64,000 bases of DNA from Desulfobacterales bacterium (GTDB taxonomy: Bacteria; Desulfobacterota; Desulfobacteria; Desulfobacterales; JAHDSC01), in the NCBI GenBank assembly GCA_018432925.1, contig JAHDSC010000062.1:1-64000 (forward strand), in the 5' to 3' direction. A model generated the notes under the pieces. The model worked only from the letters and a program-made list of their open reading frames with translations, made no database searches and was not told the DNA's origin. Positions within the stretch are counted from its first letter, which is position 1; the number at the start of each line of letters is the position of its first letter. Position numbers and translations under genes: made by a program. Shown here one piece after another: positions 24,681 through 54,599 of this stretch.

Positions 24681-27600
24681 TCAGAACCTGTACATGATCT
24701 CCCCGATGATACCGTGGGCGCAATAATCGTCGCGCAGCTCTCCGTTGTATCTTAGGGAAGTACCGAGTCCACCCTTATGCTGAAAGCTCAGGCCCGCACC
24801 CAGTACGAGGGCGTTCTGTTCCGCATCCTGCCCCTCGATACGGAAGGCCACGTTCGGCGAACCCGCAAAAGAGGTCGTGATAATCTGATCGTCGATATCA
24901 TAGTCATATTTCCACCCAACACTTACTTCAGGAAGAAAACGGCCGTTTTGAGTGGAAAATTCCCTGCTCAGGCGCAGTCCCAACTCGGATACGAGAAAGT
25001 CGGTCTGACGATCGCCGATTCGTAAGTTGAGGTCATCCGCTCCGGATTCCTCAAAGCTCTCCTCTTCAAGGCGCGCATACTGCAAGGAACCAAAAAATCG
25101 CAGCATCCAGGCATTCAAAGGAACAGTATACCCGGCTCCGAGGAAGGCGGACCATACGTTTCCGTCGTAGTCGCTGTTGGCGTTGCGACGTATGCCGCCG
25201 ATTTGAATCACCCGATCATTGTTATAATCGTTTACGCCGCAGGTTAATGCGCCTTCCGCATAGAAGCGATCCTTGAAAAACATCCCGTACAGTGATCCAT
25301 AGGTACTCCTGATGTCACCGTCACCCCGATTGCTGTCCAGGTTTATGTCGGTGTAGGAATATCCGATGTTGATGCCGGCGAGCAACCAGTCGGTCAGAAG
25401 ATAATCCAATCCAAGCGTTGCGCCTCCCATCCAGTAGTCATAGCCGGTGTGTGCCACATCCCCGTCCTGATCTCCCCACTGACGAAAACCCTGCAACCAC
25501 AGGTCGTATCTTCTGGGCTCGGAAGTTCGTTCCCTGACGCTCAAAAACCGACCAAGTTCGGCATCCGATCCGTTGTAGGCCAGAAGCGGATGATCCGAAC
25601 CCGACTCAACAGGGGACGAGCTTTCACGAACATGATTCATCCGCTGCTGCAGCACCTGGACATAGTTACGGACATTGGCAAAGGTTACCTGAGCGCCTTT
25701 GTCGTAAAGATCGGGACTCAGGCTTGAAAATGCCTCACTGAATTCATCCCCCGATAAAAGCTGGATCTCGCCCAGCACCAGTGAGAGGTCTCCGGTTGCG
25801 GAAGGTGCAATCTGGTCCAAGTATCGCGCAATCTTCAGTTCTACGTCATTTGTAGCCACCGTGGTGAAACTCTTGGCTTGCACCTCCACTTCCACGATGT
25901 CGGATGTGTCGTCTTCGAGGTAGTTGGTTCCGAAGCTCAACAATGCGGTGGGTTCTGGAAGAAGTTCCGCGCTGAACCTGTCTCCCTCCATGTAGTTGCC
26001 CGCCTCCAGGACATCAAAAGTGATTCCGTTAATGTAGACGCCCGGTCCCCTGAACACCCGCAAGGTGCCTCCAAGGTCCGTGTCGCCGGCGAAAACGAGT
26101 TTTCCGTGGGTTCCGTCGCCGTTTATCCGGATTTCGAAAAGCCCGTCATCGGCAAACCGGTAGCCGTCTCCATATCCGTCGTTGATCGCGAGTGTTCCCT
26201 GGTGGACGGTGATGCGATGCATGGTAGTCAGATCAGCCAGGGTAAAGGTTCCGGCTCCCTGTTTGGTGGCGGTTTCAAAGGCCAGAAGATCGACATCGAC
26301 CGCACCTTCTCCGTCAAAGATGAGATCGTCGGTTCCCGTCCCCGCATCCACGGCCCGGGTTACCCCGGCACCGCCGATAAACATCAGCGAATCATCGTCT
26401 ATTCCGAGATCAATGCTCCCGTCCACCAATGACCCATCGCCGAGAATGACCTCATCGTTGCCGTCGCCGGAGGTGATACCGATGCCGGGCACCGGGTCGG
26501 CGTCGTTCGACGAGACGGTGGTGATGATGCTGCCGTCGTTCCGGATGGTATCATCTCCTCCACCGGTATCAATCCCTGCAGCAGTCGCTGTAAAACTCTG
26601 TCTTACGCTCGATCCCGAGGCGCTGGTAACCGCTTCCGCCTCGACCCGGATGGTGCCTTCGTTTCGAACAACGTCATTTCCGTCGCCCGTTACAATTCCA
26701 CCGGCCTCGGCCCTTGCCTCTGCCTCCGCCGCCGCCGCTCCGCAGTAAGAAGCCGCCGTCGTATCCGCATCGGCACTGGCTTTTACGACAAGCTGCCCCG
26801 AATTTTCCACAATCGCGTTACCGTTTCCCAGTTCGATCCCCTTGGCAACCGCCGTCGCAACCGCCGACGAGCTTCCGTCTCTCGCAGCAGAAAACGTGTA
26901 TTGATCGGCCGGAGTGATGACTTCTCCCTCATCGTCTACCTCCAGCGCCTTCAGGTCACCGGGAAGTCCCTGGGTCAGGGTGATCGTGCCGGTGCCGGAA
27001 TCAAAGGCCTCGATGCGGGTGTAAAAATCCGCGTTGTCACCCGTAAGGAAACGGACCCATTTCCCGACCACGTTGCCCGAGGGTTGACCGATGAGGGATG
27101 CGTCCACGAACGTTGTCGATCCGCTCGCGCTGTCTCCCGTAACGGTCGAAGTATCGTCCGGTGATCCGATTACGGCTCCCCGGGCATAGGAGGTTGAATC
27201 CGCCGAGGCCTCTACCCGGATGATTCCGCTGTTAAAAACGTGATCTTCCTCGTCCCCCGCCTGCACGCCCCAACCATATGCCTGGGCTATTGCATCCGCG
27301 TCCGCGTCGGTTTCAGACCGATCATACTCGGCTGCGGCCGTCGCAGCAACGGTCGACTGTGAGGATACCAGGAGATCACCTGCGTTGAAAGCCACATTGT
27401 TCCCTTGGCCAAGATCCAGGCTCCAGGCAATAGCATCGGCAATGGCATCGACCGAATTCGTCGTCGAGGAAAAAAAGACGGCCGTTACGCCATCCACATC
27501 TGCCGTGGAGACCGCTTCGGCATGAATGGAACCCTCCTCGGCATTGAAAAACTCATCATCACCGGAACCCATATCGACCCCCAAAGAATCGCTGGAGGCC

Positions 27601-30600
27601 TCGAAAAAAAGATTCTGCTCGGCGTTTCCGAAGACCACATACACTCGATCCGTGGATGAGACACCGGCCGTGGATTGGGTAAGGATATCGCCATAGTTGC
27701 CGAATGAGTCACCGGACTGCCCCCCCCTCATGCCGACAGATACCGCATCTGCTCTTCCTCTTGCCTGGATATCCGCCTCCCCGAAATTGAGGGACCAACG
27801 GGTAGCGTCGATGGCGCTGTTCGCCGCGACATCGATTGTACCCAGATTGATAATGGTGTCGCTTCCCCCGCCCAAGGTGTAGATATCGCCTATCAAGATT
27901 CCCCCGGAAGGAAGCGATTCTGCCAGGGTAAACGTTCCCGTTTCAGAATCAAATGCTTCCACGGTGGTGAGAAAACCGGCAGACGCGCCTGATTGGATAA
28001 GGACCGGCCGGCCGATGATTGCCGCCGGATCTTCCCCCTTGCGTGAGATATCGGTAAACGTGTTGGTACCCCCGTTACTGGAGTCCGAGACACATGCCCG
28101 GTCGCTCCCCTCGATGCCGACGGCATCCGCTCCGGATGCGATACGGGTATCCACATCGATATTTCCGCCGAGGGTGACGGTGACCGATTCAATCAAGTTG
28201 TTGGCCGAAACGGAGACCGAACCCGAATTCACGATCTCGTCATCGCCGCTGCCTCCCACCATTCCCTTTGCCCGGACCGAAGCGGTTGTAGAGGCATCCA
28301 CTGTCGTACGCCCTCCGACGGTTACGGTTACCTCGGTAATATCTGCCTCCTTGTCTCCGTAGTCATAGATGGTATATGTGGCGCCCGGGGACAGATCACA
28401 GGTGAGCGGGTCTCGTAAGGTTAACCGTCCGGTCAGCGGATCGAACGCCATGATCTGAGTAAAGAAATCCGGATTCTCTCCTCCAGAGATACGAATCCAC
28501 TTGCCTTCCAGTTCCTGGGCAGATTCCGTGACGAGTGATTGATCGACCAGTGTCCGTAATCCACTGCCCGCCTGTTCCGAAACAGTCGACGCAGTCTCCG
28601 GACCTCCGGCGAATACAAGTACGTTTCCTTCATTGTTGATGGTATCGTTACCTTCACCGCCCGTGAGGCCCGTCGCACCGGCGTTAAGCAGGATTCCCAC
28701 TTTTCCATCAACGTTTCCGCCGCTGCCGAAGGTTCGAGTCGCCGAAACGACACGAGGGGCGGCTTCCACGAAGACCGTGTCCGTATTCGCGATTTCATCG
28801 TCGCCGGCACCGGTGTCGACCCCGCTCGCATGGGCCAGGGCCAGAGTTCTGGCATCTGAGTAAGCCGGTCCCGAGCCGCTCACCGTGAGAGAATGAACGG
28901 TCACCGTCCCGCCTGCCTCGACGGTTACCAGGCTGGTGTTCATTATTTCGTCATTGCCTGATCCCGCCGTGATCCCCTTGGCGCAGCTGTCGGCGGCTGC
29001 GAAATTGGATGAAGCGGCCACGGTGTGTGCGTCACCAAAGATGGAATCCGCGAGGGCAATAGTAGTTGAACGCACGGTCGTATCGGCAGTCGCTGTTGCG
29101 TTGACAGCGCCATCGTTTTCGATGATATCATTTCCGGCATCGCCGCTGATCCCCGTTGCCGCGGCTTTACCCTGTGCTGAGGACGCAGTGAATGCAGCGG
29201 CATACGCATCTCCAAACGTGGAATCCGAAATGGACACTGAGGAAGATGCGACGATAAGTGTGCTTTCGGCGATTGAATCAAGATACCCCACGTTTTCGAT
29301 CATGTCGCTATCGCCTCCGCCCGTGATGCCTGTGGTGAATGCGGATCCCTCGGCACCGGCGGTCGCAAACGCAGCGCTTCTCGCGCTCCCGAACGTTGCG
29401 TCCGCATTGGAGTATGAGCTTGAGGATACCGTGCCGTCCGATGTGGCTGTCACCATAAGAGCGCCGTTGTTGATGATCACGTCCATACCGTCGCCGCCGT
29501 CCATTCCGGTGGATTCCATCCGCCTGACAGCCGAGGCATCGGATACGGCCTTGCTCGAGGCGCTCCCGAACGTGACGTCCGCATTCACATTAGAAGTTGC
29601 CGAAACCGAACCGGTGGAGGTGGCGTCCACAGTGATGAGGCCCGCGTTGGTGATCACGTCCATGCCGTCGCCGCCGTCAATTCCGGTGGCCTCCCCGGCC
29701 ACGTCGGCCGAGGCATCGGATACGCCCTTGCTGGATACACCGCCGAAGACCACGTCTGAATCTACATTCGATGTGGAAGTAACCGAGCCGTTGGCCGTGG
29801 CGGTTACCGTGAGGGTGTTACTGCTGGTTATCGTATCATTGTCGGCACCGCTTTCGATTCCTGTTGCATCGGCCCTCACCGTTGCGGAGGCATCGGATAC
29901 GGCCTTCCCGGCAGCTGAACCGAATGCGGTTATACTGTCGGCAGTGGAGGTCGATTCAGTGGTTGCCGAGGTAGTAGCGGCTACGGTAATCGGGCCATCG
30001 CTGATGATCACGTCCGCATCGGTCTCATTGGAATCCATGCCTGATTCTCCACCCCGTATGCCGATAGCGGCGGCAATTACATCGGTCGCGGCGCCCGCCA
30101 CGGATTCTCCCGAACTCGCTCCTGCAATATTGAACCCCGTGTTGGTTGCCGAGATGGCTTGGGTAGAAGCACCGGAATAAGCGTTCAGAGACATGGCCAC
30201 CGTACTGTGAATATAGTCGTCTCCCTCACCGCCGTCGATTCCAATAGCAAGAGAATCAGCGACTGTTTCCGTTTTTGCCCGCGCCTCCTGTACATTCACG
30301 CCGAGGCCAAGTCCGGTGACGGTCGAGGAACGCGACGAACCGGTCACAAAAGAATCCGCGGTGACGTCAAGCGTACCCCCGGCCGTGATGATGTCACCGC
30401 CAGTGCCGCCGTCAATGCCTCGTGCGATGGTCTCTGCTGTCGATGAACTGTCTGCCGAGGCCGACTGAAGTGCCGCTCCGACGGATAAGATGTTGTAGTT
30501 ACTCGCAGTGCTTACCGCCGTACTTTTCGAGCGTGCCTTGACGGCGATTGCGTTATCGGTCGTGATCTCATCGCCATCTCCACCGCCGTCGATTCCCGTG

Positions 30601-33600
30601 GCAAGCGATGTGGCGAGTGCGGAGGCATCGGACTCCGCTCCTCCTTCCGAGGCCCCCAACGTCAGGGAAACCGAGGTGGTTTCGCCTATGCCCACGGCTT
30701 CGGAACTCGAAAAAGCGTTGATAGGACCGGCGTTGAAGATCCGGTCTCCGCCTCGGCCGGTTTCTATACCGGCGACAGTCGTCATCGCCGTGGCTGAAGC
30801 GTCTGAGGAAGCATCACCGAAACTCCCGCCGATGGTGATCCCGATATCAATCGTTTCACTTGCTGCTCTGGCTTTGGCCATTGCATCCGTCTTTGCCGGA
30901 TCGGAAAAGTCACAGCCCACGGTAATGCTGCCGGTGTTGATGATGTCGTCATTGCCGGAACCGCCCCTGATGCCGGCGGCTGTCACAACCGCGGTAGCCG
31001 ACGTGTCTGAGGAAGACTCGCCCAGACTGGCTCCGGCGGTCACTGAGATATCTACGGTAGTGCTCCTGGAATCGGCATTTGCCATGCCTCCCGTCCCCAT
31101 GGGATCGCCTCCGACGGTAATGTCACCGGAGTTGATGATCCGGTCATCGCCCGACCCGCCGCTTATGCCGGCGGCTTCCGCCTCGGCCAGGGCGGAGGCG
31201 TCTGAGGAGGCTTCACTCATATTCAGCCCTGCGGCGATACCGACGGTCACGGTCGTGGATTCGGCCCCGGCATCGGCCATCAGGCCCATTGTTTCGAGCC
31301 CTCCGACGGTAATTGCCGCCGTATTGGTGATATCGTCGTCATCGCCACCACCTTCGATACCGGTGGCAATCGCACGGGCGGTGGCGGATGAGTCGCCCAC
31401 ACCGATCGTGTCGGCCGCTCCCGCTCCTATGGTAACGCCTACCGAAGTACTGTCGGATCGTGCCTCCGCTTTTGCGGTGGATTTGATTTCGCTGGCGTTG
31501 TCGATGGTGTCGTTTCCGAAACCGCCATCGATACCGGCCGAACAGGCAATGCTCGAAGCGGAAGATTCAGCCACTGCGGCACCGCTCGCCATACCCACGG
31601 CACCGGTTCCCTGGACCGAAACGCTTTCCGCGTCGGTAAGCGACCTGGCACACGTCGATATGGGGTTAGCCGAGGAAGTGATCGTATCGTCGCCTTCGCC
31701 GCCATATATGCCGATGCTCTGCGATATCGCCTCCGCGGAACTGTCGGCAACCGATTTGCCCTCCGCCAGGCCCTTCATGGCTCCGGCCAATCCTACACCG
31801 ACGGCGGTTGCCTGTGCATCCGCGAGAGAATTGATATCGATCTCACCTTCGTTGATGATGGCGTCATCATTTCCTCCGCCGTCGATCCCGGTCGACCGGG
31901 CAAGCGAGACGGAGCTAGAATCGCTCAATGCGGCTCCCTCGGCCTCACCCTCCGCAGCCACCGTTATTCCCACGGTAACCGCGACGGTGTCTGTGTCGGC
32001 ATGAGCGGCAGCCGATATCTTTCCCCGGTTGGTAATCTCATCCATGCCGTCATCGCCGCTGATCCCGGTTGCCTCGGCTTCGGCCGTGGTAGTGGCTTTG
32101 CTCAGCGCTTCTCCACCGGCCTGGCCCCGCAAGGTCCCCGCGACCGTTACGGAGACCGCCGTACTGGTCGCATCCGCATCCGAAAAGAGTCGGATCAGAC
32201 CGCTGTTGTCGATGATGTCGTCGTCATCACCGCCCTCAATACCCGTAGCCTCGGAATTCGCCGTTGTGGAGACGTCACTCAGAGACGATCCTTCGGCTGT
32301 GCCATTGAGGCCAACAGTAACTTCTGCGGCAACTGCCACCCCCTCGGCATGAGAATCCACGTCTGCTGTAATGCCGGCCGTGTTGGTGATAATATCCGAA
32401 CCGCCTGCACCGTCGATCCCGGTTGCCTCGGCTCCGGCCGTGGTAATGGCTTTGCTCAGTGCCTGCCCCTCTGACGAGCCGTTGAGGTTGCCGGTGATGT
32501 CCAGTGAAGCGGCAACCCCTATCGCTTTTGCATCGACTTCATCTTCCCCGAGTTCCTGTTTCATCAGGATGATGGCTCCTTCATTGGAGATGATGTCGTT
32601 TCCTTCACCCCCGTCGATACCGATGGCTGTCGAAAGAGCCGTTGCGCCGGCGTCGCTCATCGACGATCCTTCCGATTCGCCGACCATGTTGCCTGATACA
32701 TTTAAAGATGCCGCGATACCGTCCGCACTCGATGACGGCAAAAGTTTTATGATCCCGCTATTGGCAATGTCGTCATTATCTCCGCCACCATCGATTCCGG
32801 TTGCCTCGGCTTCGGCCAGGACCGTGGCATTACTCGCAGCGGTACCCGTGACGTCGCCGGCGGCAACCCCCTTGATGGCCACGTTTCCCGAAACATTCAG
32901 GCTCGCAGAGACACCTAGGGCACTCGCATCGACTTCGTCGACTCCCGTATCCTGATCCATCAGGGTGATGTTGCCGCTGTTGCGGATCTTGTCCTTCCCG
33001 CCGTCACCTTCGATACCGGTGGCAATCGCCCGGGCGGCCACGCCGGTGTTGCTCGCCGCAGAGCCGGAAACGTCCGCGGTTGATGCGCCTTTGAAACTGA
33101 GTGCGGCTGAGACATTGAGTTCTGCCGTCACCCCCGTGGCATCTGCTGTCGAGAGAAGGCGAATATCTCCTTCATTGTCGATCTGGTCATCACCCAGACC
33201 CCCATCAAGTCCCAGCGCCGTTGCCCGGGCGGTTACACTGCTGTCGCCGATCGCCCCGCCTTCTATGTCCGCCTGTGCATTTCCATTGATGGCGAGAACC
33301 GAGGTAAAATTCAAGCCGGCGGCCACACCTGTCGCGGAGGAACCCGCCTCAAGCCCGACAATGTCTCCCGTATTGATGATCGTATCATTTCCTTCACCGG
33401 CCGCGATTCCAACAGCAAGCGAGTCCGCCCTCACATCGGCCTTGCTTACGGCTTTACCCGTGGCGTTCACCTTTGCATCATCCTTGAATGACACACCCGC
33501 CGTGGTGCTGAGGGACGCCGCAACTCCGGTTACATCGGATTTCGCCGATAGCGAAGCGATGTCCCCCTCGTTGATAATCGTGTCACGGCCTTCACCACCG

Positions 33601-35666
33601 TCAATCCCCACGGCCGCTACTTCCGCCGTGACGCTGGTGTCGCTCAAGGCCGCTCCTGAGATATCCCCTTCGTTTTCACCCTTGAAAGCAACGGATCCGG
33701 CAATATCCAGGGAAGCGGCTACGCCTGTCGCGGTTGAGTCCGATGTAAGATTGATGAAGTCGCCGGTGTTGGTGATCTCGTCATCCCCCGCGCCACCCTC
33801 GATAGCAACGGTAACGGCCTGGGCGGTGACCTTGGCGTCACTGATTGCCGCACCCGAGACATCCACATTTGCGCCTCCTTGAACAGCCAATCCCGCCGCC
33901 ACATTCAGGGAAGCCGCTACCCCCGTGGCGTCCGATTCCGCCCGCAGGAGATTGAAGTTGCCGTCGTTTACGATGATATCGTTTCCATCGCCACCGTCAA
34001 TTCCTTTGGCTCCTGAATACGATGCCGTATCGGCATCGCTCAGTGCCGTTCCCTCGACTTCTCCGGATACGTCACCCTTAAAAGCAACGCTTCCGGCGAT
34101 ATCGAGGGAAGCCGATACTCCGGTAGCGTCTGAATTGCTTAGGACTGCAACGAAGTTGCTCGTGTTGCCGATGATGTCGTTTCCCGCATCGCCTTCGATT
34201 GCCGTAGCCGCAGCCATGGCCGTCACACTGCTATCGCTGAGGGCCTGTCCCGCGGCATTGCCTTCCGAGTCACCCTTGAATGATCCTGTGGCAGCAATAT
34301 TCAGAGAAGCCGATACTCCCGTGGCATTCGCTTCCGCCTGAAAAAGGTCGAGGCCGCCCTCGTTGTTGATGGTATCGTTACCGTCACCACCGACCATTCC
34401 CGTGACCGTTGCCGCCGATTTGACATGGGTGTCACTCGCCGCTTTACCCTCGACGTCACCGGTCGCTTTCCCTTCGAAAGTGGCGGACCCGGCTATATCC
34501 AGTCCGGCGGCGACCCCGACGGCATCCGATTGGGCAACAAGGCGGATGGCTCCACCATTGCCGATATCGTCCGCGTCGCCCCCGCCGTCTATCCCGGTAG
34601 CCACGGACGCAGCCGTTACGCCGGCGTCACTCAGTGCGGCGCCGGTGGCGTTTCCTCCTTCTTTGATAGACAGACCAACATTCAAATCCGCACTGACGGC
34701 AGTTGCATCTGAACCAACTGCCGCAAAAATGCCGCCGTAGTTGGTGATTGTATCGCTTCCAAGTCCGCCTTCAATCCCGATGGCCGTAGCATTCGCTACG
34801 GCACTGGAGTCGCTGAGTGCGGAACCCTCCGATTCGCCTTCCAGCGTTCCCGCAACCTCCAGACCGACACTCACCGCCGTTGCACTCGCATCAACCGCAT
34901 CGTCGCCGGCCCCATTCATCAAGGTGATTGTGCCTTCATTGACAATCGTATCGTCACCGGCCCCACCATCGATTCCGGTGGCCGTTGCATCGGCCGTCAC
35001 GCTCGCGTCACTTACCGCCTTGCCTTGCACATCGCCTTTCATCGTTCCGGCCACATCCAGGGAGACCGCCGCACCGGTCGCCTCGGAGGATGAAAAAAGC
35101 GTGATGGCACCACGGTTGTCAATATCGTCGCTGTCATCACCTCCGTCAATCCCGGTGGCCATGGACGCAGCCGTTACGCCGGCGTCACTCAATGCCCCAC
35201 CTTCGGCTGTGCCCTCCGCGGTAATTCCGATGTCCACACTCACTCCGACAGCGGTTATATCCGCCGCGGCATTCGCAACGATTTCCCCAAAATTGATTAT
35301 TCCATCGGTTCCGGCCCCCCCGCTGATCCCCGTTGCTTCCGCACTCGCCGAAACCCCGGAGTCACTCAAAGCGGTTCCCGAAGCGTCTCCTGCTACGGCG
35401 CCATCAATGATCCAAGAAACCCCAAGTGCTTCGTCGGATATGTAATCTTCCGCATGGATCGATGCCCAACCTTCTATCATGATAATATCGTTACCCGCAC
35501 CTCCGATGATCCCGTCGCAGTTAAAATCCAAGGTGATGACATCATCTCCTGGTGTGCCGTAAATCGTGTCGGCATGTACCGTCACTTGAGTAACGGGAAA
35601 AATGGTAAAAAGAGAAGTAAAAACCACCAGGACAGATGCGATCAGCAAGACGTGGCGGCGACACAT
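24681..35666 (-). CDS. Giant repeat-rich autotransporter adhesin (3,661 residues)
   Basis: A very large type V secreted protein. The signal peptide spans residues 1 to about 32 (VLLIASVLVVFTSLFTIFPVTQ, then VHA). The passenger (about 40-3060) is built of about 45 solenoid-like units of 55-75 residues. Each has a block such as ATGIDGGAGDDTIVNEG, which resembles a single RTX calcium loop (GGxGxDxI), followed by Ala/Val/Gly/Asp/Ser strands. Three inserts of about 75-85 residues interrupt it. A junction region (about 3150-3360) leads to the C-terminal beta barrel (about 3375-3661), which ends in an aromatic residue (MYRF) as barrel proteins do. Secretion would use Sec and then BAM, with bamD nearby. 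AGGGAGGAAAACGAT before ATG 35666 fixes the start; the frame is open to 35909 through the riboswitch. The passenger is acidic and almost free of Cys. Adhesion is inferred from architecture and from the c-di-GMP riboswitch. Confidence 0.9.
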   Translation of the reverse strand: MCRRHVLLIASVLVVFTSLFTIFPVTQVTVHADTIYGTPGDDVITLDFNCDGIIGGAGNDIIMIEGWASIHAEDYISDEALGVSWIIDGAVAGDASGTALSDSGVSASAEATGISGGAGTDGIINFGEIVANAAADITAVGVSVDIGITAEGTAEGGALSDAGVTAASMATGIDGGDDSDDIDNRGAITLFSSSEATGAAVSLDVAGTMKGDVQGKAVSDASVTADATATGIDGGAGDDTIVNEGTITLMNGAGDDAVDASATAVSVGLEVAGTLEGESEGSALSDSSAVANATAIGIEGGLGSDTITNYGGIFAAVGSDATAVSADLNVGLSIKEGGNATGAALSDAGVTAASVATGIDGGGDADDIGNGGAIRLVAQSDAVGVAAGLDIAGSATFEGKATGDVEGKAASDTHVKSAATVTGMVGGDGNDTINNEGGLDLFQAEANATGVSASLNIAATGSFKGDSEGNAAGQALSDSSVTAMAAATAIEGDAGNDIIGNTSNFVAVLSNSDATGVSASLDIAGSVAFKGDVSGEVEGTALSDADTASYSGAKGIDGGDGNDIIVNDGNFNLLRAESDATGVAASLNVAAGLAVQGGANVDVSGAAISDAKVTAQAVTVAIEGGAGDDEITNTGDFINLTSDSTATGVAASLDIAGSVAFKGENEGDISGAALSDTSVTAEVAAVGIDGGEGRDTIINEGDIASLSAKSDVTGVAASLSTTAGVSFKDDAKVNATGKAVSKADVRADSLAVGIAAGEGNDTIINTGDIVGLEAGSSATGVAAGLNFTSVLAINGNAQADIEGGAIGDSSVTARATALGLDGGLGDDQIDNEGDIRLLSTADATGVTAELNVSAALSFKGASTADVSGSAASNTGVAARAIATGIEGDGGKDKIRNSGNITLMDQDTGVDEVDASALGVSASLNVSGNVAIKGVAAGDVTGTAASNATVLAEAEATGIDGGGDNDDIANSGIIKLLPSSSADGIAASLNVSGNMVGESEGSSMSDAGATALSTAIGIDGGEGNDIISNEGAIILMKQELGEDEVDAKAIGVAASLDITGNLNGSSEGQALSKAITTAGAEATGIDGAGGSDIITNTAGITADVDSHAEGVAVAAEVTVGLNGTAEGSSLSDVSTTANSEATGIEGGDDDDIIDNSGLIRLFSDADATSTAVSVTVAGTLRGQAGGEALSKATTTAEAEATGISGDDGMDEITNRGKISAAAHADTDTVAVTVGITVAAEGEAEGAALSDSSSVSLARSTGIDGGGNDDAIINEGEIDINSLADAQATAVGVGLAGAMKGLAEGKSVADSSAEAISQSIGIYGGEGDDTITSSANPISTCARSLTDAESVSVQGTGAVGMASGAAVAESSASSIACSAGIDGGFGNDTIDNASEIKSTAKAEARSDSTSVGVTIGAGAADTIGVGDSSATARAIATGIEGGGDDDDITNTAAITVGGLETMGLMADAGAESTTVTVGIAAGLNMSEASSDASALAEAEAAGISGGSGDDRIINSGDITVGGDPMGTGGMANADSRSTTVDISVTAGASLGESSSDTSATAVVTAAGIRGGSGNDDIINTGSITVGCDFSDPAKTDAMAKARAASETIDIGITIGGSFGDASSDASATAMTTVAGIETGRGGDRIFNAGPINAFSSSEAVGIGETTSVSLTLGASEGGAESDASALATSLATGIDGGGDGDEITTDNAIAVKARSKSTAVSTASNYNILSVGAALQSASADSSSTAETIARGIDGGTGGDIITAGGTLDVTADSFVTGSSRSSTVTGLGLGVNVQEARAKTETVADSLAIGIDGGEGDDYIHSTVAMSLNAYSGASTQAISATNTGFNIAGASSGESVAGAATDVIAAAIGIRGGESGMDSNETDADVIISDGPITVAATTSATTESTSTADSITAFGSAAGKAVSDASATVRADATGIESGADNDTITSSNTLTVTATANGSVTSTSNVDSDVVFGGVSSKGVSDASADVAGEATGIDGGDGMDVITNAGLITVDATSTGSVSATSNVNADVTFGSASSKAVSDASAVRRMESTGMDGGDGMDVIINNGALMVTATSDGTVSSSSYSNADATFGSARSAAFATAGAEGSAFTTGITGGGDSDMIENVGYLDSIAESTLIVASSSVSISDSTFGDAYAAAFTASSAQGKAAATGISGDAGNDIIENDGAVNATATADTTVRSTTIALADSIFGDAHTVAASSNFAAADSCAKGITAGSGNDEIMNTSLVTVEAGGTVTVHSLTVSGSGPAYSDARTLALAHASGVDTGAGDDEIANTDTVFVEAAPRVVSATRTFGSGGNVDGKVGILLNAGATGLTGGEGNDTINNEGNVLVFAGGPETASTVSEQAGSGLRTLVDQSLVTESAQELEGKWIRISGGENPDFFTQIMAFDPLTGRLTLRDPLTCDLSPGATYTIYDYGDKEADITEVTVTVGGRTTVDASTTASVRAKGMVGGSGDDEIVNSGSVSVSANNLIESVTVTLGGNIDVDTRIASGADAVGIEGSDRACVSDSSNGGTNTFTDISRKGEDPAAIIGRPVLIQSGASAGFLTTVEAFDSETGTFTLAESLPSGGILIGDIYTLGGGSDTIINLGTIDVAANSAIDATRWSLNFGEADIQARGRADAVSVGMRGGQSGDSFGNYGDILTQSTAGVSSTDRVYVVFGNAEQNLFFEASSDSLGVDMGSGDDEFFNAEEGSIHAEAVSTADVDGVTAVFFSSTTNSVDAIADAIAWSLDLGQGNNVAFNAGDLLVSSQSTVAATAAAEYDRSETDADADAIAQAYGWGVQAGDEEDHVFNSGIIRVEASADSTSYARGAVIGSPDDTSTVTGDSASGSTTFVDASLIGQPSGNVVGKWVRFLTGDNADFYTRIEAFDSGTGTITLTQGLPGDLKALEVDDEGEVITPADQYTFSAARDGSSSAVATAVAKGIELGNGNAIVENSGQLVVKASADADTTAASYCGAAAAEAEARAEAGGIVTGDGNDVVRNEGTIRVEAEAVTSASGSSVRQSFTATAAGIDTGGGDDTIRNDGSIITTVSSNDADPVPGIGITSGDGNDEVILGDGSLVDGSIDLGIDDDSLMFIGGAGVTRAVDAGTGTDDLIFDGEGAVDVDLLAFETATKQGAGTFTLADLTTMHRITVHQGTLAINDGYGDGYRFADDGLFEIRINGDGTHGKLVFAGDTDLGGTLRVFRGPGVYINGITFDVLEAGNYMEGDRFSAELLPEPTALLSFGTNYLEDDTSDIVEVEVQAKSFTTVATNDVELKIARYLDQIAPSATGDLSLVLGEIQLLSGDEFSEAFSSLSPDLYDKGAQVTFANVRNYVQVLQQRMNHVRESSSPVESGSDHPLLAYNGSDAELGRFLSVRERTSEPRRYDLWLQGFRQWGDQDGDVAHTGYDYWMGGATLGLDYLLTDWLLAGINIGYSYTDINLDSNRGDGDIRSTYGSLYGMFFKDRFYAEGALTCGVNDYNNDRVIQIGGIRRNANSDYDGNVWSAFLGAGYTVPLNAWMLRFFGSLQYARLEEESFEESGADDLNLRIGDRQTDFLVSELGLRLSREFSTQNGRFLPEVSVGWKYDYDIDDQIITTSFAGSPNVAFRIEGQDAEQNALVLGAGLSFQHKGGLGTSLRYNGELRDDYCAHGIIGEIMYRF
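26440..35560 (-). repeat. About 45 tandem 55-75-codon repeats in the autotransporter passenger
   Basis: The repeat hallmark is A-T/V/I-G-I-D/E/S-G-G-x-G-x-D-x-I-x-N-x-G, seen about 45 times from the N-terminus to about residue 3060. It is accompanied by variants of ALSDSSVTA and VAASLDIAGS. Neighbouring units are similar enough at the DNA level (for example the two units near 29,470-29,710) to allow recombination and array-length change. The repeats also generate long antisense frames that are not genes. Confidence 0.85.
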
Positions 35667-35741
35667 ATCGTTTTCCTCCCTTTGCTTCAAAAAGGCGGGG
35701 TTCGGGGAATCTTCCCTTCCCTGGTTTGAAATACACGGCAT

Positions 35742-35780
35742 GAAAAAAGCCGGGTCACCTTTAACTTCGGCAACCCGGCT
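35742..35780 (-). terminator. Riboswitch expression-platform terminator
   Basis: A perfect 8-bp stem: minus-strand AGCCGGGT (35780-35773) pairs with ACCCGGCT (35755-35748) and is followed by TTTTTC. The 5' arm lies inside the c-di-GMP aptamer, so aptamer and terminator are mutually exclusive. The autotransporter start is about 75 bases further on. Confidence 0.85.
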
Positions 35781-35841
35781 GTCTGCTTCCAGACCCATGG
35801 CTTTCCGTCCCACCCTCGCGGATGGTTTGGTTTTATCGAAG
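35765..35841 (-). ncRNA. c-di-GMP-I (GEMM) riboswitch
   Basis: Read on the minus strand, the aptamer has a closing stem CTTCG (35841-35837)/CGAAG (35769-35765), then AAACCATCC with a GCGA tetraloop and GGGTGGGACGGAAAGCC. A second hairpin GGGTCT/AGAC follows, then CCGGGTTGCCGAAG. This is the GEMM-I layout, including the GNRA loop and the GGGAC-AAAGCC joining segment. One base differs from the common form (GGACGG where GGACGC is usual). Ligand binding should keep the terminator at 35742-35780 from forming, so c-di-GMP is predicted to switch the autotransporter on. Confidence 0.88.
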
Positions 35842-35852
35842 CATAAGAAACG

Positions 35853-36000
35853 CAAAAAGCCCCGAACGGAGCGGTCAGACACTCCGTCGAGGCTTATTGG
35901 GTACAACATCGGGATAAAACATTATCCCTCGGTAAGCTATATGCTGGAAACCGGACCAATTGGTAAACCGGGTCCGGACCATGTTATGCAGGTTCAGCAA
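35853..36000 (-). ncRNA. Unidentified structured leader RNA upstream of the c-di-GMP riboswitch
   Basis: The minus-strand RNA has several strong hairpins in a row. The palindromes GGTCCGGACC (35971-35980) and ACCAATTGGT (35955-35964) can also pair as CCGGACC/GGTCCGG. GGGATAA/TTATCCC (35911-35928) comes next. A 9+5-bp stem AAGCCTCGACGGAG/CTCCGTTCGGGGCTT follows and runs into TTTTTGCG (about 35853-35896), a terminator-like end. There is too little room between that hairpin and the GEMM aptamer for a separate promoter, so this may be an extra attenuator in the same leader. No known riboswitch class was recognised. Confidence 0.5.
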
Positions 36001-48953: not shown

Positions 48954-51638
48954 TCATGCCGGTGAAGAACTGTGTCTCGACCTCTTGATTACCTTTTCGA
49001 TTTCCACCGCCAGAAATACGACGGTTGAAAGCAGAATCGTAATGACAAATTCTCCGGCGGTGAGCGGTTCGGTCTTGAAAATGGGGTTCAAAAACGGCAC
49101 ATATATGGTGGCCATCTGAAGAACGAAGGTCAGCAAAACCGCCCCGAGAAGCGGTTTGTTGGACAAAACCCCCTGCCTGAAAAAAGATTCCTGTTCGGAT
49201 CGAATGGCCAGCACGTGCCCCATCTGACTCAAACAGAGAACGGTGAATACCATGGTTTGCCAGTGGGTCTGACTGCGGTCGATGAACAGGGCCTGGGTCA
49301 TGATGGAAACGGCTCCCATGAGCAGACCGACCCAGACGATGTGCCCGCCGAGACCTTTGGCGAAAATGCTTTCCTTCGGGTCCCTGGGAGAACGGCTCAT
49401 GATGTCTTTCTCCCCGGGCTCGGCGGCCAGGGCCAAACCGGGCAGACCGTCGGTCACCAGGTTGATCCACAGGATATGGATCGGCAGCAGCGGAATGGGC
49501 AGACCGAGGAATGGCGCCAGAAAAATGGTGAAGATCTCGCCTGAATTACTGGTCATGGTGTATTTGATGAACTTGCGAATGTTGTCAAAAATACGCCGGC
49601 CTTCCCGGACGGCCTTGACGATGGTGGCGAAATTGTCGTCCAGAAGAATCATGTGGGAAGCTTCCTTGGACACATCGGTTCCGGTAATCCCCATCGCCAC
49701 CCCGATATCCGCCCGTTTTAAAGCCGGCGCATCGTTGACCCCGTCCCCGGTCATCGCCACAAAATGCCCCTTATTCTGAAGCGCCTCAACGATCCTCAGC
49801 TTCTGTTCCGGGGCGACCCGGGCGTAGACCCGTATCCTTTCCACCCGGTGTTGGAATTCCTCCGGCGGAAGCTGGGCGAGCTCTCGACCGGTAATGACGG
49901 CCTTCCCATTCTCTCGAATAATCCCGACGCGTCTGGCAATCACCTCGGCTGTCAGCAGGTGATCTCCCGTAATCATCACCGGCCGGATACCCGCGGACCG
50001 GCATATGGCAACCGACTCCACCGCCTCCGGCCGGGGTGGGTCCATCATTCCGACCATCCCGATCAGTACCAGCCCTGTTTCCGCCTGTTCCGAAGTCAGC
50101 GGATCGGGAACCGCATCCCGGATCCGCATGGCGAACCCCAGGGTCCTCAGGCCGTCTCCGGCAATCCGATCGGCGGTCTCCAAGACTTTCGAACGGTCGA
50201 TTTCTTCCATGCCCTTGTGGAATAAGGTTTTTTCGGATCGCTCCAGAATTTCCTCAACCGCGCCCTTGGTGAAAGAAACGATCCGGCCGTTTTCCCAGGG
50301 ATGGAAAGTGGTCATGAGTTTTCGGTCCGAGTCAAACGGAATTTCGGCCAGCCTGGGGTATTTTTCATCCAGCCTCTCGCGGATATATCCTTTCTCTTGG
50401 GCCAGATCGAAAAGGGCCGTTTCGGTCGGATCGCCGATCACACCGCCGGAGGCATCCAGTCTGGCATCATTGCAAAGTGCCAGTGCAATCAGCAGCAGAT
50501 CGAAGGGCTCCCTGCCGGTCAGTGAACCATCCACGGCTTCCTCCCGGGTCGGGAGAGTCAATTCATCGGTCCGGTGCTGCCGCCCGCCTGCATAAACCTT
50601 TTCCACGGCCATGCGGTTCAAGGTCAATGTCCCGGTTTTGTCGGAGCAGATGTAGGTAACCGATCCGAGGGTCTCCACCGCCGGTAGCTTTCGGATCAAT
50701 GCCTGCTGCTTGACCAGCTTCTTGGCACCCAGAGCCAGTGAGATGGTAATAACGGCGGGAAGGGCCTCCGGAATCGCAGCCACCGCCAGAGAGATCGCTG
50801 TAAGAAGCATCAGGAGCGGAGGCTCTCCCCGAAGGAGACCGGCCAGAAAAACGATCACGCAGATGGCCAGAACCGCGTAAGCAAGCTTCTGCCCGAAAGA
50901 TGCAAGCCGTTTCTGAAGAGGAGTCCGCCCCTCATCCTGGTCCTGAAGCAGGGCGGCGATCCGTCCGAGTTCCGTCCGCATCCCGGTTTCCGCCACCAGG
51001 CCCTGACCTCGGCCGTAGGTGACCAGGGTTCCTTTATAGGCCATGTTTTTCCGGTCTCCGATGGCCGGGTCCGCTTCCGGAAGCGCCGCGCTGTCCTTCT
51101 CCACCGGCACGGATTCACCGGTCAACGCCGCTTCATCGATTCGAATCCGGACCGCTTCCGTCAGCCGGATATCGGCAGGCACCACGTTGCCGGCCTCAAG
51201 GATCACCAGGTCCCCGGGGACCAGCCGCTCGGCGTTCATCGATTCGGGCCGCCCGTCCCGGATAACGTTCGCCGAAGGGGCTGCCAGCTTCTTCAGGGCG
51301 GCCATGGCTTTTTCGGCCCGATATTCCTGGACGAAACCAAGAACGGCGTTCAACAGCACAATCACGGCGATGGCGATGGTGTCCGAAATCTCTCCGATCA
51401 CTCCGGCTACGATAGCGGCGGCGATCAGCACCAGGATCATGAAATCCTTGAACTGATCCAGAAACATCATCCATAAGGATTTGCGCTTCTTTTCGATCAG
51501 TTCGTTGGGGCCATAACGCTCGAAACGCCGGTGGGCCTCCTCGGAAGTAAGACCCGTGCCGGATGATCGCAGCTTCTCCGGAACCTCTTTTGGATCCAGC
51601 TGGTGCCATTTAATCGATCCGTTTCCCTTTGCACTCAT
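48954..51638 (-). CDS. P-type cation ATPase, Ca2+/Mn2+ type (P2A-like)
   Basis: An 894-residue P-type ATPase that pumps a divalent cation out of the cytoplasm. The actuator motif is TGES at about 173-176, the phosphorylation site DKTGT at about 333-337 and the hinge TGDGVNDAPALK. The TM4 metal site is AAIPEALPAVITI, TM5 has SNSGE, and TM6 has NLVTDGLPGLAL. This matches the SERCA/PMR1 arrangement (NLVTDGLP, N and E in TM5), so Ca2+ or Mn2+ is expected. It lies about 220 bases downstream of the Tim44-like gene, behind a yybP-ykoY Mn2+ riboswitch, so Mn2+ is the likelier signal. ATG 51638 is used; TTG 51647, closer to GGGAG, is possible. Confidence 0.9.
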   Translation of the reverse strand: MSAKGNGSIKWHQLDPKEVPEKLRSSGTGLTSEEAHRRFERYGPNELIEKKRKSLWMMFLDQFKDFMILVLIAAAIVAGVIGEISDTIAIAVIVLLNAVLGFVQEYRAEKAMAALKKLAAPSANVIRDGRPESMNAERLVPGDLVILEAGNVVPADIRLTEAVRIRIDEAALTGESVPVEKDSAALPEADPAIGDRKNMAYKGTLVTYGRGQGLVAETGMRTELGRIAALLQDQDEGRTPLQKRLASFGQKLAYAVLAICVIVFLAGLLRGEPPLLMLLTAISLAVAAIPEALPAVITISLALGAKKLVKQQALIRKLPAVETLGSVTYICSDKTGTLTLNRMAVEKVYAGGRQHRTDELTLPTREEAVDGSLTGREPFDLLLIALALCNDARLDASGGVIGDPTETALFDLAQEKGYIRERLDEKYPRLAEIPFDSDRKLMTTFHPWENGRIVSFTKGAVEEILERSEKTLFHKGMEEIDRSKVLETADRIAGDGLRTLGFAMRIRDAVPDPLTSEQAETGLVLIGMVGMMDPPRPEAVESVAICRSAGIRPVMITGDHLLTAEVIARRVGIIRENGKAVITGRELAQLPPEEFQHRVERIRVYARVAPEQKLRIVEALQNKGHFVAMTGDGVNDAPALKRADIGVAMGITGTDVSKEASHMILLDDNFATIVKAVREGRRIFDNIRKFIKYTMTSNSGEIFTIFLAPFLGLPIPLLPIHILWINLVTDGLPGLALAAEPGEKDIMSRSPRDPKESIFAKGLGGHIVWVGLLMGAVSIMTQALFIDRSQTHWQTMVFTVLCLSQMGHVLAIRSEQESFFRQGVLSNKPLLGAVLLTFVLQMATIYVPFLNPIFKTEPLTAGEFVITILLSTVVFLAVEIEKVIKRSRHSSSPA

Positions 51639-51860
51639 GGTTTTCAATGCTCTCCCTCAGACGGCCATAGGTCCCTCAAACAGGCGATCATGCGGCTGAA
51701 AAAATATGGGGCTTCAATCGGTGGATGCGCAAATATGTTTTTCCCGAGCTCGTCTTGTCGGTTTTTCAGACTCGACAAAAATATGTTTCCTTGCCGGAAG
51801 CCACCTATATGCGATCCGCGAAAATCCGCCGGAACCGGGACCTGAAGCAAAACGAGGCGT

Positions 51861-52724
51861 TTATTGCTCCACCTGCTGAATTCCCTCCAGTATCCAGAAG
51901 GATTCCGGGTTCGCCCGGTCCCGGCTGAAATGCCAAAGTTCACGGACTTGTTGGGTAAACTCGTCTTCATTTTCGCGCAGCAGAACATCGTAGAGTACCG
52001 AGGCGATGATTTGGCTGCCGGTGTCTCGTACCTCTAAAATGCTCGGGTTGATCCGCAGCAGCTCGGTTTTGCCGGGTACGGGATCATCCTCGGCCTGCTG
52101 TCGGATTTCGCTGAAGACTTCGGCTGAAGTAAACGAACGGATGTCATCGAGGTCCCGTTTGTCCCATGCACCCTGGAGTCGGACATAGATGGTATTGGTC
52201 CCTTTGAGAAACTCCTTCGCGTCGAACCCCGGCGGCAGAGACGGCTGCTGAAAGGCAGCAGCGGCTTCCTCCGTCGGTGTGTAGTTCGCACGACCCCATG
52301 CCTGGGCAGGGTCGCGTTCAAACCGCATGGCGTCTCCCTCGGATGACGATGCCGCAGTCACGCGTCGGGCGTGCAAAAACCGAAAAAGAAGAAAAAGACC
52401 GCCCCCCACCAGCAACAGGTCCGGCAATCCGATACCGCCGAACGCGCCGCCGAAAAGCAAGGAGCCGATCAGGCTGCCCATGAGCAATCCGCCCAGCATT
52501 CCTCCCCAGCGGCCTGCCGGCTGCCGGGCCGTCTGACCTGGTTTTGTCGAAGAGGCGGCAGAACCCTGCGAAGGAGACGGCGCGCTTCGCTGATAGCTCG
52601 GTTTGCTTCCGAAAAACCTACCTCGTCCCATACGAGCCGCCTCCGCCGTGTCATGCCATAAATAAAGCAGACAGAGTGTAAAGCTGAAAAACATCAGGAT
52701 GGAAAATCCGGTCTTTTTGTTCAT
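51861..52724 (-). CDS. Tim44-like domain membrane protein
   Basis: A 287-residue protein. An N-terminal signal/anchor (about 7-29) is followed by a Ser/Pro/Gln-rich low-complexity stretch (about 38-70). A Gly-rich hydrophobic region comes next (about 73-118, GGMLGGLLMGSLIGSLLFGG then LLLVGGGLFLLFRFL). The C-terminal Tim44-like domain (about 160-287, FLKGTNTIYVRLQGAWDKRDLDDIRSFTSAEVFSEI) resembles bacterial Tim44-family proteins of unknown role. It is the first gene behind the manganese riboswitch, with the P-type ATPase next, suggesting a partner role in metal stress or membrane maintenance. That link is inference. Confidence 0.8.
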   Translation of the reverse strand: MNKKTGFSILMFFSFTLCLLYLWHDTAEAARMGRGRFFGSKPSYQRSAPSPSQGSAASSTKPGQTARQPAGRWGGMLGGLLMGSLIGSLLFGGAFGGIGLPDLLLVGGGLFLLFRFLHARRVTAASSSEGDAMRFERDPAQAWGRANYTPTEEAAAAFQQPSLPPGFDAKEFLKGTNTIYVRLQGAWDKRDLDDIRSFTSAEVFSEIRQQAEDDPVPGKTELLRINPSILEVRDTGSQIIASVLYDVLLRENEDEFTQQVRELWHFSRDRANPESFWILEGIQQVEQ

Positions 52725-52792: not shown

Positions 52793-52840
52793 AAAAAAAA
52801 AGCCTTTATCCGCGGTACGGATGCGTACTGCCGATAAAGG
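52793..52840 (-). terminator. Expression-platform terminator of the Mn2+ riboswitch
   Basis: On the minus strand CCTTTATC (52840-52833) pairs with GATAAAGG (52810-52803), with an inner GTAC/GTAC pairing, followed by C and nine T's. The 5' arm CCTTTATC is also the 3' strand of the aptamer's closing stem, so the two structures exclude each other. Confidence 0.88.
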
Positions 52841-52950
52841 TCTTGCAATTTCGACACGATTGTCTCAACCCCGCATCCGGATGGCCGATACCATCGTGCT
52901 GACGAATCGCGGGCCGGCATGAAGAAATTGCCGGTGCTACTCCCCTGTAT
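52834..52950 (-). ncRNA. yybP-ykoY manganese riboswitch
   Basis: The minus-strand RNA has the class hallmarks in order. First is ACAGGGGAGTAGC (GGGGAGTAGC at 52945-52936), then a CCGGCA/TGCCGG hairpin. The second loop TCGTCAGCACGAT, a GGGGTTGAGAC segment and the closing CAAGACCTTTATC follow. Stem P1 pairs the segment before GGGGAG with CCTTTA. Mn2+ binding should hold P1 and prevent the terminator at 52793-52840, so it is an ON switch for the Tim44-like/P-type ATPase pair. Members of this class usually precede TerC, MntP or P-type ATPase genes. Confidence 0.85.
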
Positions 52951-52958
52951 TTGTCGCA

Positions 52959-52987
52959 AGATTATGAAAAGGCCCCTCGCCTGTCAA
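52959..52987 (-). promoter_or_regulatory. Sigma-70 promoter of the riboswitch transcript
   Basis: On the minus strand a perfect -35 TTGACA (52987-52982), 17 bases, then -10 TAATCT (52964-52959). The expected start of transcription falls at about 52,952, just before the aptamer, as a riboswitch leader requires. Confidence 0.75.
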
Positions 52988-53285: not shown

Positions 53286-54599
53286 TCAATCAACCGCCCC
53301 GAAGTCACTCGGCTCGGAAGGACTTCGGTCGATTTCGATGAGCACTTTGTCGATGCGGTTGCCGTCCATATCGACGACCTCGAAACGAGCGTCCCCGTGT
53401 ATGAAACTCGCGCCGGTCTCGGGTATTCTTCCCAGATTTTCCAGCACGAAACCCGCCAGCATCTTCACGTCCTTTCCCATGCCGATGCCCGTGACGGCTT
53501 CCACCTCGTCGGTCGGACACATCCCGTCGGCCAGCCACGATTCGTCATTTCTTTTCAAGATCCCTGGTCCGGGTTCTTCGCCCTGTTCCGGAAGGTCCCC
53601 GGCGATTGCCTCGATCACATCGGTAAGGGTTACAAGCCCTTCCGTTGCGCCATATTCATCCACCACGACGGCGAAATGAACTTTCTCCTTTTTAAAACGA
53701 TTGAGAAGTTTGAGGACCGATGTGCCCTCGGGAATGGAAAGCAGGGGCGTCATCCGCTCGGTAAGAATGATATCGGCGCAGCGCAGTGCCTCGGGAAGAA
53801 GATCCTTGGTGTGAACGACGCCGACGGGGCGATCCACTGTTCCGTCGCAGACAAGCAAGCGCGAAAAACGATTCGACTCGACCATATCCAGAATCGTGCT
53901 TCGGTCGGATTCGGCGTCGACCCAAACAATCCGGGAGCGCGGCGTCATGATAACCCGGACCGGTCGATCCGCCAGGCGGAGCACGCCTTGAATCATTACC
54001 TGTTCCTGCGGGAAAAAAACGCCCGATACCGTCCCCTCGGCAATCAGCGACTTGATCTCTTCCTCGGTTACGGATGTTTCCCGGGTACTCGGCAAACCCA
54101 ACGCGCTCAGCACCCTCTCGGTCGATACATGAAGCAACCATACCGCCGGAGCGGCGACCTGGGAGAGTCCCCGCATCGGCCCGGCTGCCAAACAGGCGAT
54201 CCGTTCCGGTTGGGCCAGCGCGATTCGCTTCGGCACGAGTTCACCCACGACCAGCGACAGGTACGTTATGCATACGACCATGACGCCGATACCCACGGCA
54301 ATGCCGTGCGGCGAAATCGAAGGAAACGTATTGAGCCATCCGCCGAGCCGCTGCCCCAGGGTCGCGCCGCTGAATGCACCGGCGAAGATGCCGACCAGCG
54401 TGATGCCGATCTGGACCGTGGAAAGGAACCGGCTCGGATCGTGGATGAGACGGAGAGCGGCCCTCGCGCCACGGCTGCCCTGTTTGGCCAGATCTTCGAG
54501 GCGGCTTTTCCGAGAGGATACGACGGCAAGTTCGGACATGGCGAGCAATCCGTTGATCAGGGTCAGAAGGACGACGGCAAGTATTTCAAGATACAGCAT
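53286..54599 (-). CDS. CNNM/CorC-type membrane protein with CBS domains (HlyC/CorC family)
   Basis: A 437-residue protein. An N-terminal DUF21/CNNM transmembrane domain (about 1-195, several hydrophobic helices starting LEILAVVLLTLINGLLAMSELAVV) leads to a CBS-domain pair (about 205-330, containing PRSRIVWVDAESDR and VVVDEYGATEGLVTLTDVIEAI). A C-terminal CorC_HlyC domain (about 350-430) follows. The family is linked to Mg2+/Co2+ homeostasis; older haemolysin names are misleading. It lies upstream of the Mn2+-riboswitch unit on the same strand but is separated by that unit's own promoter. Confidence 0.88.
   Translation of the reverse strand: MLYLEILAVVLLTLINGLLAMSELAVVSSRKSRLEDLAKQGSRGARAALRLIHDPSRFLSTVQIGITLVGIFAGAFSGATLGQRLGGWLNTFPSISPHGIAVGIGVMVVCITYLSLVVGELVPKRIALAQPERIACLAAGPMRGLSQVAAPAVWLLHVSTERVLSALGLPSTRETSVTEEEIKSLIAEGTVSGVFFPQEQVMIQGVLRLADRPVRVIMTPRSRIVWVDAESDRSTILDMVESNRFSRLLVCDGTVDRPVGVVHTKDLLPEALRCADIILTERMTPLLSIPEGTSVLKLLNRFKKEKVHFAVVVDEYGATEGLVTLTDVIEAIAGDLPEQGEEPGPGILKRNDESWLADGMCPTDEVEAVTGIGMGKDVKMLAGFVLENLGRIPETGASFIHGDARFEVVDMDGNRIDKVLIEIDRSPSEPSDFGAVD

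Follow-up and report, generated by a model that had tools for sequence, protein, structure and literature searches.

We suggest that a minus-strand element running from position 52987 down to 52793 of the window (the whole 64,000-nucleotide stretch of Desulfobacterales DNA analyzed here) is a transcription-terminating Mn2+-type (yybP-ykoY) riboswitch, a reading to which we would assign a probability of roughly 0.87. Promoter, four-helix aptamer and terminator follow one another on this strand; in the direction of the RNA the order is TTGACA, the -10 region, P1.1, GGGGAGUAGC, P2, P3 with CGUCA in its loop, P4, GCAAGACC and CCUUUAUC, the last of which can act either as the closing strand of P1.1 or as the 5' arm of the terminator and is followed by nine U's. 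The parts that an earlier note on this DNA had named were all located in the sequence where it had placed them (Table 1), on the minus strand, which the note had left unmentioned; CAAGACCTTTATC has its end at 52833. As an RNA element this belongs to a known riboswitch class; its interest lies in a blind spot of the Rfam model RF00080 and in a recurrent Tim44-like target gene.

The promoter had been described as perfect, which holds for the exact TTGACA but overstates the rest: TAATCT agrees with TATAAT at three of six positions at the 17-bp spacing, and the alternative CATAAT agrees at five of six but with a spacing of 15 bp. It is thus a good, imperfect promoter, and a generic promoter scan reported nothing at the leader. 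An exact TTGACA lies 40-46 bases 5' of GGGG in all 21 order-level leaders, window included, and the hexamer is absent from the pattern with which leaders were collected; it also occurs in 16 of the 19 phylum-level leaders examined (20 of 37 matches were retrieved and 19 judged, with L230, which lacks the core pattern, left out). Just upstream of the switch and on the same strand lies a CNNM/CorC-type transporter gene (53286-54599; PF01595, PF03471), and CNNM/CorC-related genes are also found near the switches in L061, L096, L115, L181 and L182.

Table 1. Features of the putative riboswitch and its downstream genes, in window coordinates; PMC papers are cited from excerpts of their text.
Feature	Position	Strand	Basis
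-35 element TTGACA	52982..52987	-	sequence; conservation
-10 region: TAATCT 52959-52964 (spacing 17) or CATAAT 52961-52966 (spacing 15)	52959..52966	-	sequence
yybP-ykoY-type aptamer, helices P1-P4	52830..52957	-	R1 match; covariation
P1.1 5' strand, pairing with 52834-52840, one C-U mismatch 52947/52837	52944..52950	-	pair list; L. lactis homology
GGGGAGTAGC: top of P1.1, loop L1, start of P1.2	52936..52945	-	sequence; numbering of PMC9190785 and PMC6754395
Helix P2 (CCGGCA/TGCCGG)	52914..52934	-	covariation; pair list
P3.1, L3, P3.2	52870..52913	-	covariation; pair list; contact residues of PMC9190785
Helix P4 (GACA/TGTC), variable region	52853..52864	-	pair list
P1.2 3' strand, AAGA of L1, shared strand CCTTTATC	52833..52847	-	sequence; covariation; pair list
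Intrinsic terminator CCTTTATC...GATAAAGG, -19.9 kcal/mol, nine T 52793-52801	52793..52840	-	sequence; fold; conservation
First gene: Tim44-like membrane protein, 287 aa, PF04280 E 3.9e-15	51861..52724	-	Pfam
Second gene: P-type cation ATPase (PMR1/SERCA/LMCA1 group)	48954..51647	-	ORF; Pfam; NCBIfam; structure relatives

Relatives were collected with the pattern GGGGAGTAG, 62-92 bases, AAGACCTTT, in which 18 bases are fixed; because the window itself matches this pattern, the 18 bases do not count as independent support. Of the order's 389 genomes, 20 matched the pattern, compared with 4 that matched its reversed form, and by eye 16 of the 20 order-level matches share the aptamer layout; L022, L024, L028 and L041, with coding or unrelated-looking sequence, were dropped from the order-level set. 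A scan of named genomes contributed at least 120 stretches. Altogether 135 leaders end in CAAGACCTTT, and 130 were left once four had failed a loop filter (of these, L101 and perhaps also L044 could be genuine) and L022 had later been removed. Alignment A1 joins 12 of the 16 order-level leaders to 8 named-genome leaders and the window, 21 sequences of which 20 are distinct, and leaves out L033, which duplicates the window, as well as L031, L032 and L035 (compact form); alignment A2 is A1 without the window and without the duplicate L110. A mixed alignment of beta/gamma and Bacillota leaders, A3, aligned poorly, and no model was derived from it.

R1, a covariance model trained on 19 relatives and not on the window, matched the 64 kb of the window once, at 74.6 bits and E 3.7e-17. 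Across 67 sources, it scored leaders of Bacillota, Nitrospirota and Desulfobacterota-type bacteria at 38-69 bits; among these, yybP-ykoY leaders of Bacillota, some of them below the cut-off with RF00080, reached 38 to 59 bits. Leaders of beta/gamma origin scored 19-33 bits, except L074 at 41.7, and E. coli mntP gave no R1 match, so that by R1 the kinship to the proteobacterial branch is weak. Among 14 unrelated-looking control loci that match the collecting pattern, one R1 match appeared, at 18.2 bits and E 0.13. A viral scan returned 16 loci, six of which were used as R1 controls; of all 16, L168, L169 and L176 at a minimum look by eye like true aptamers.

The covariation in A1 points to a four-helix fold. 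In this alignment 96.7% of cells are paired, both sides change in 14 of the 27 pairs, and the covariation score is 0.438, compared with 0.200 for shuffled alignments (0 of 500) and at most 0.165 when the structure is slid. The covarying helices are P1.2, P2, P3.1 and P3.2; P4 is present in the window, and P1.1 is paired and hardly varies, as is to be expected of a helix that lies largely inside the search pattern. With the R1 match, the conserved promoter and terminator and the partner genes described below, this bears out the earlier assignment to a yybP-ykoY-like aptamer. The leader folds more stably than all 200 of 200 shuffles (z -4.3). Taken alone, the window's aptamer favors another structure, at -40.3 kcal/mol versus -37.0 kcal/mol for the best fold with the consensus helices, a difference of about 3 kcal/mol, and the aptamer fold hence rests on comparison; docking or metal would be needed to make it stable.

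The same note had proposed RF00080 as a check on the assignment, and this is where its expectation failed: RF00080 has no match in the 64-kb window, none in a 601-base stretch even at E 10, and none in the window's own genome at E 0.001. In the relatives set, 58 genomes with the window's own among them, nothing exceeded the cut-off; among the weak matches in that search, one (G042, L004) is a real relative. We do not take the missing match as refuting the riboswitch, given the low sensitivity of the model: E. coli mntP scores 41.6 bits, under the gathering score of 45, and three Paenibacillus/Alkalihalobacillus leaders score 27.4, 29.3 and 32 bits, all below 45. The printed consensus line of RF00080 (Rfam 15) has no P1 pairing. 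We regard its gathering score as a detection criterion and not as a defining feature of the class; the curated model misses genuine Mn2+-type switches, and the lack of a match does not amount to the lack of a switch. Elsewhere in the window, a c-di-GMP-I-GGC riboswitch (RF03167, 64.4 bits) was found on the minus strand at 35765-35840, where it overlaps the start of a 3742-aa ORF (24681-35909); by eye this ORF seems to encode a surface protein of repetitive sequence whose C-terminus is barrel-like, and the true start of the ORF is probably the later MCRRHV.

That one segment would serve both the closing stem of the aptamer and the terminator with its nine-T tail had also been claimed, and the pairing supports this: the arms of the terminator are CCTTTATC (52833-52840) and GATAAAGG (52803-52810), and the two pairings of the former are mutually exclusive. 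The arrangement, a hairpin starting from GACCTTT and followed by a T-run, is kept in all 21 order-level leaders, window included, compared with 83 of 402 shuffled downstream sequences, GACCTTT being retained, that pass the hairpin test; across all leaders tested, 106 of 134 pass it. In L. lactis, according to the available text of PMC11087558, Mn2+ stabilizes P1.1 and the terminator is thereby prevented. By analogy with such homologs, we infer Mn2+ as the ligand, an ON direction and loop docking for the leader described here. Transcription would start from the TTGACA promoter, the emerging leader would fold into the four-way junction of the aptamer, and L1 and L3 would dock around Mn2+, stabilizing P1.1, which in turn would hold the strand CCTTTATC. 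With little Mn2+, CCTTTATC would instead pair downstream, form the terminator with its nine U's and stop transcription; with ample Mn2+, RNA polymerase would read on into the Tim44-like gene and, probably, into the gene for the P-type ATPase, which, judging from gene order, would export metal. Both Mn2+ selectivity and Mn2+-dependent expression of the leader are predictions of this model.

The Tim44-like protein scores 26.3 bits against the NCBIfam Tim44/TimA adaptor model, under its cut-off of 80, and the best NCBIfam model for the ATPase is PMR1-type, at 740.5 bits under a cut-off of 798.3; among proteins of solved structure, those closest to the ATPase are lmo0841 (LMCA1), a Ca2+-ATPase of Listeria, and the type 2C (SPCA1) Ca2+-ATPase. 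The gap of about 213 bases between the genes could be read as a sign that the switch controls the Tim44-like gene only and that the ATPase is transcribed separately, and three genomes (G151, G315 and G126) have a Tim44-like gene first with no ATPase after it. We nonetheless consider such separate control rather unlikely: no minus-strand promoter or terminator was reported in the gap, from which co-transcription is deduced, the switch operon of G517 has an ATPase and then Tim44, and 13 of 122 leaders have an ATPase as their first gene. On gene order, then, the ATPase is probably read through from the switch.

These 122 leaders are the ones, out of 130, that are followed within 450 bases by the start of an ORF of 80 aa or more, and representatives of their first-gene clusters were checked against Pfam. 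The largest clusters are TerC (51), GDT1 (UPF0016; 16) and P-type ATPase (13), partners that are typical of the yybP-ykoY class; smaller ones are M48/HtpX-like protease (6), Tim44-like (4) and TFIIB-type zinc ribbon (4), with Na/Ca-exchanger-like (6) and Spo0M-like (5) named by eye, and the remaining clusters have two members or one. An M48/HtpX-like membrane protease stands first after the switch in L105, L224, L226, L228, L230, L233 and L235, from several Geobacteraceae-like and other genomes. Small TFIIB-type zinc-ribbon proteins come first in L035, L053, L106, L113, L188 and L240, and in L106, L188 and L240 a P-type ATPase lies further on, beyond the zinc-ribbon gene. In L186 (G042) the P-type ATPase behind the switch is split over several frames, either a broken gene or an assembly error.

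In L. lactis numbering, P1.1 includes A3-A5, G6 and G7, and the Mn2+ site comprises G9, U39, C40, A41, U44 and C45, as given in the accessible part of PMC9190785; A10 of L1 is placed from an excerpt of PMC6754395. In the window, the equivalents of G9 (52942) and A10 (52941) lie in loop L1, and L3, CGTCAGCAC at 52896-52904, holds those of U39 (52902), C40 (52901), A41 (52900) and C45 (52896); all six are kept, and position 44 is A, versus U in L. lactis. Four relatives (L215, L216, L217 and L218) have CGACA or CGCCA instead of CGTCA in L3, and some of these carry CCAGACC in place of CAAGACC, loop changes that may possibly reflect an altered metal preference. Variation of this kind at the U39 equivalent, together with the likeness of the window's ATPase to Ca2+ pumps, would fit an aptamer of this family that works by the same mechanism but responds to another divalent metal (e.g., Fe2+, Ca2+ or Cd2+), and the review PMC7266159 states that the ligands of some yybP variants are probably other divalent ions. 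We regard such retuning as improbable for the leader in the window, which retains the L. lactis Mn2+-site positions except 44 and belongs to a set whose partner genes are of the Mn2+ class. That the leader might be just a constitutive attenuator or simple intrinsic terminator, its aptamer likeness a chance motif match, would agree with the silence of RF00080 and with the divergent lone-sequence fold, but we reject this with near certainty on the strength of the R1 score, obtained with the window outside the training set, the covariation, and the promoter-aptamer-terminator layout conserved in 21 of 21 leaders.

With the Mn2+-type switch as the preferred reading, we note that a Tim44-like membrane protein appears repeatedly as a less expected target of such switches in Desulfobacterota-type bacteria. 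PF04280 is present in 16 of the 20 switch-bearing genomes of the order, and in 10 of these 16 the gene lies on the same strand at most 4 kb downstream of the switch, either as first gene (G000, G126, G151, G253, G288, G315 and G361) or after TerC (G131, G236 and G386); the link is absent in the other six, G203 being masked either way by a contig end. Of another 30 phylum-level genomes with the switch, 14 carry PF04280; three of these (G517, G537 and G626) show the same-strand link within 4 kb downstream and 11 do not; in G484, Tim44 is 5.7 kb away. The links expected by chance number 0.009 for the order set and 0.013 for the phylum set, in genomes that are not independent of one another. The linked genomes span six families of the order and two others, and their gene orders vary: G537, for instance, has HtpX-TerC-Tim44, and G517 has zinc ribbon-ATPase-Tim44. 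Within the 58 genomes searched, the Tim44 protein most similar to that of the window is encoded in G030 (54% identity); neither a GGGGAGTAG nor a AAGACCTTT motif was found around its gene, and G030 is also not among the R1 matches.

In B. subtilis, the available text of PMC10246235 describes TerC as metalating exported enzymes at the Sec translocon and as co-purifying with HtpX, which suggests, without proving it, a shared membrane role for the Tim44-like protein. We therefore put forward, tentatively and at somewhat less than even odds, that the Tim44-like inner-membrane proteins of Desulfobacterota-type bacteria are regular, hitherto unreported members of Mn2+-riboswitch regulons, part of an Mn2+-controlled membrane module with TerC, HtpX and P-type ATPases; this module would perhaps load exported proteins with metal, or control their quality, at the Sec translocon. 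In an open library of 5.39 million papers we found no report that links a Tim44-like protein to manganese or to a riboswitch, and none of a manganese riboswitch in Desulfo- organisms. The uncharacterized bacterial Tim44-like family gains from this a testable context, that of metal-controlled expression beside TerC.

Compared with the yoaB riboswitch of L. lactis, the window differs at position 44 and in its first gene, Tim44-like where yoaB presumably encodes a P-type ATPase, and the sequences and lengths of P2, P3 and P4 probably differ as well. A Streptococcus Mn-sensing riboswitch, reportedly described by Martin in 2019, is said to belong to an Mn2+/Ca2+ ATPase; this too would be a Mn2+-type switch with a Ca2+-type P-ATPase in its operon, albeit in another phylum, and in the window the ATPase comes second, after the Tim44-like gene. 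E. coli mntP, of the yybP-ykoY class (RF00080), shares the GGGGAGUAGC and GUCAACA loops with the window but is missed by R1, which finds the window; its switch is translational, according to the abstract of PMC11647493. NiCo and M-box are metal-sensing leaders likewise, and their Rfam models have no match in the window or the 601-base stretch; NiCo is also four-way but, in the excerpt of PMC6754395 available, is described as being without the L1-L3 docking interface. With the L. lactis yoaB riboswitch, on the other hand, the element described here has in common the contact bases of L1 and L3 (PMC9190785, in part) and a 3' strand of P1.1 that is also part of an intrinsic terminator (PMC11087558 and PMC6754395, in part).
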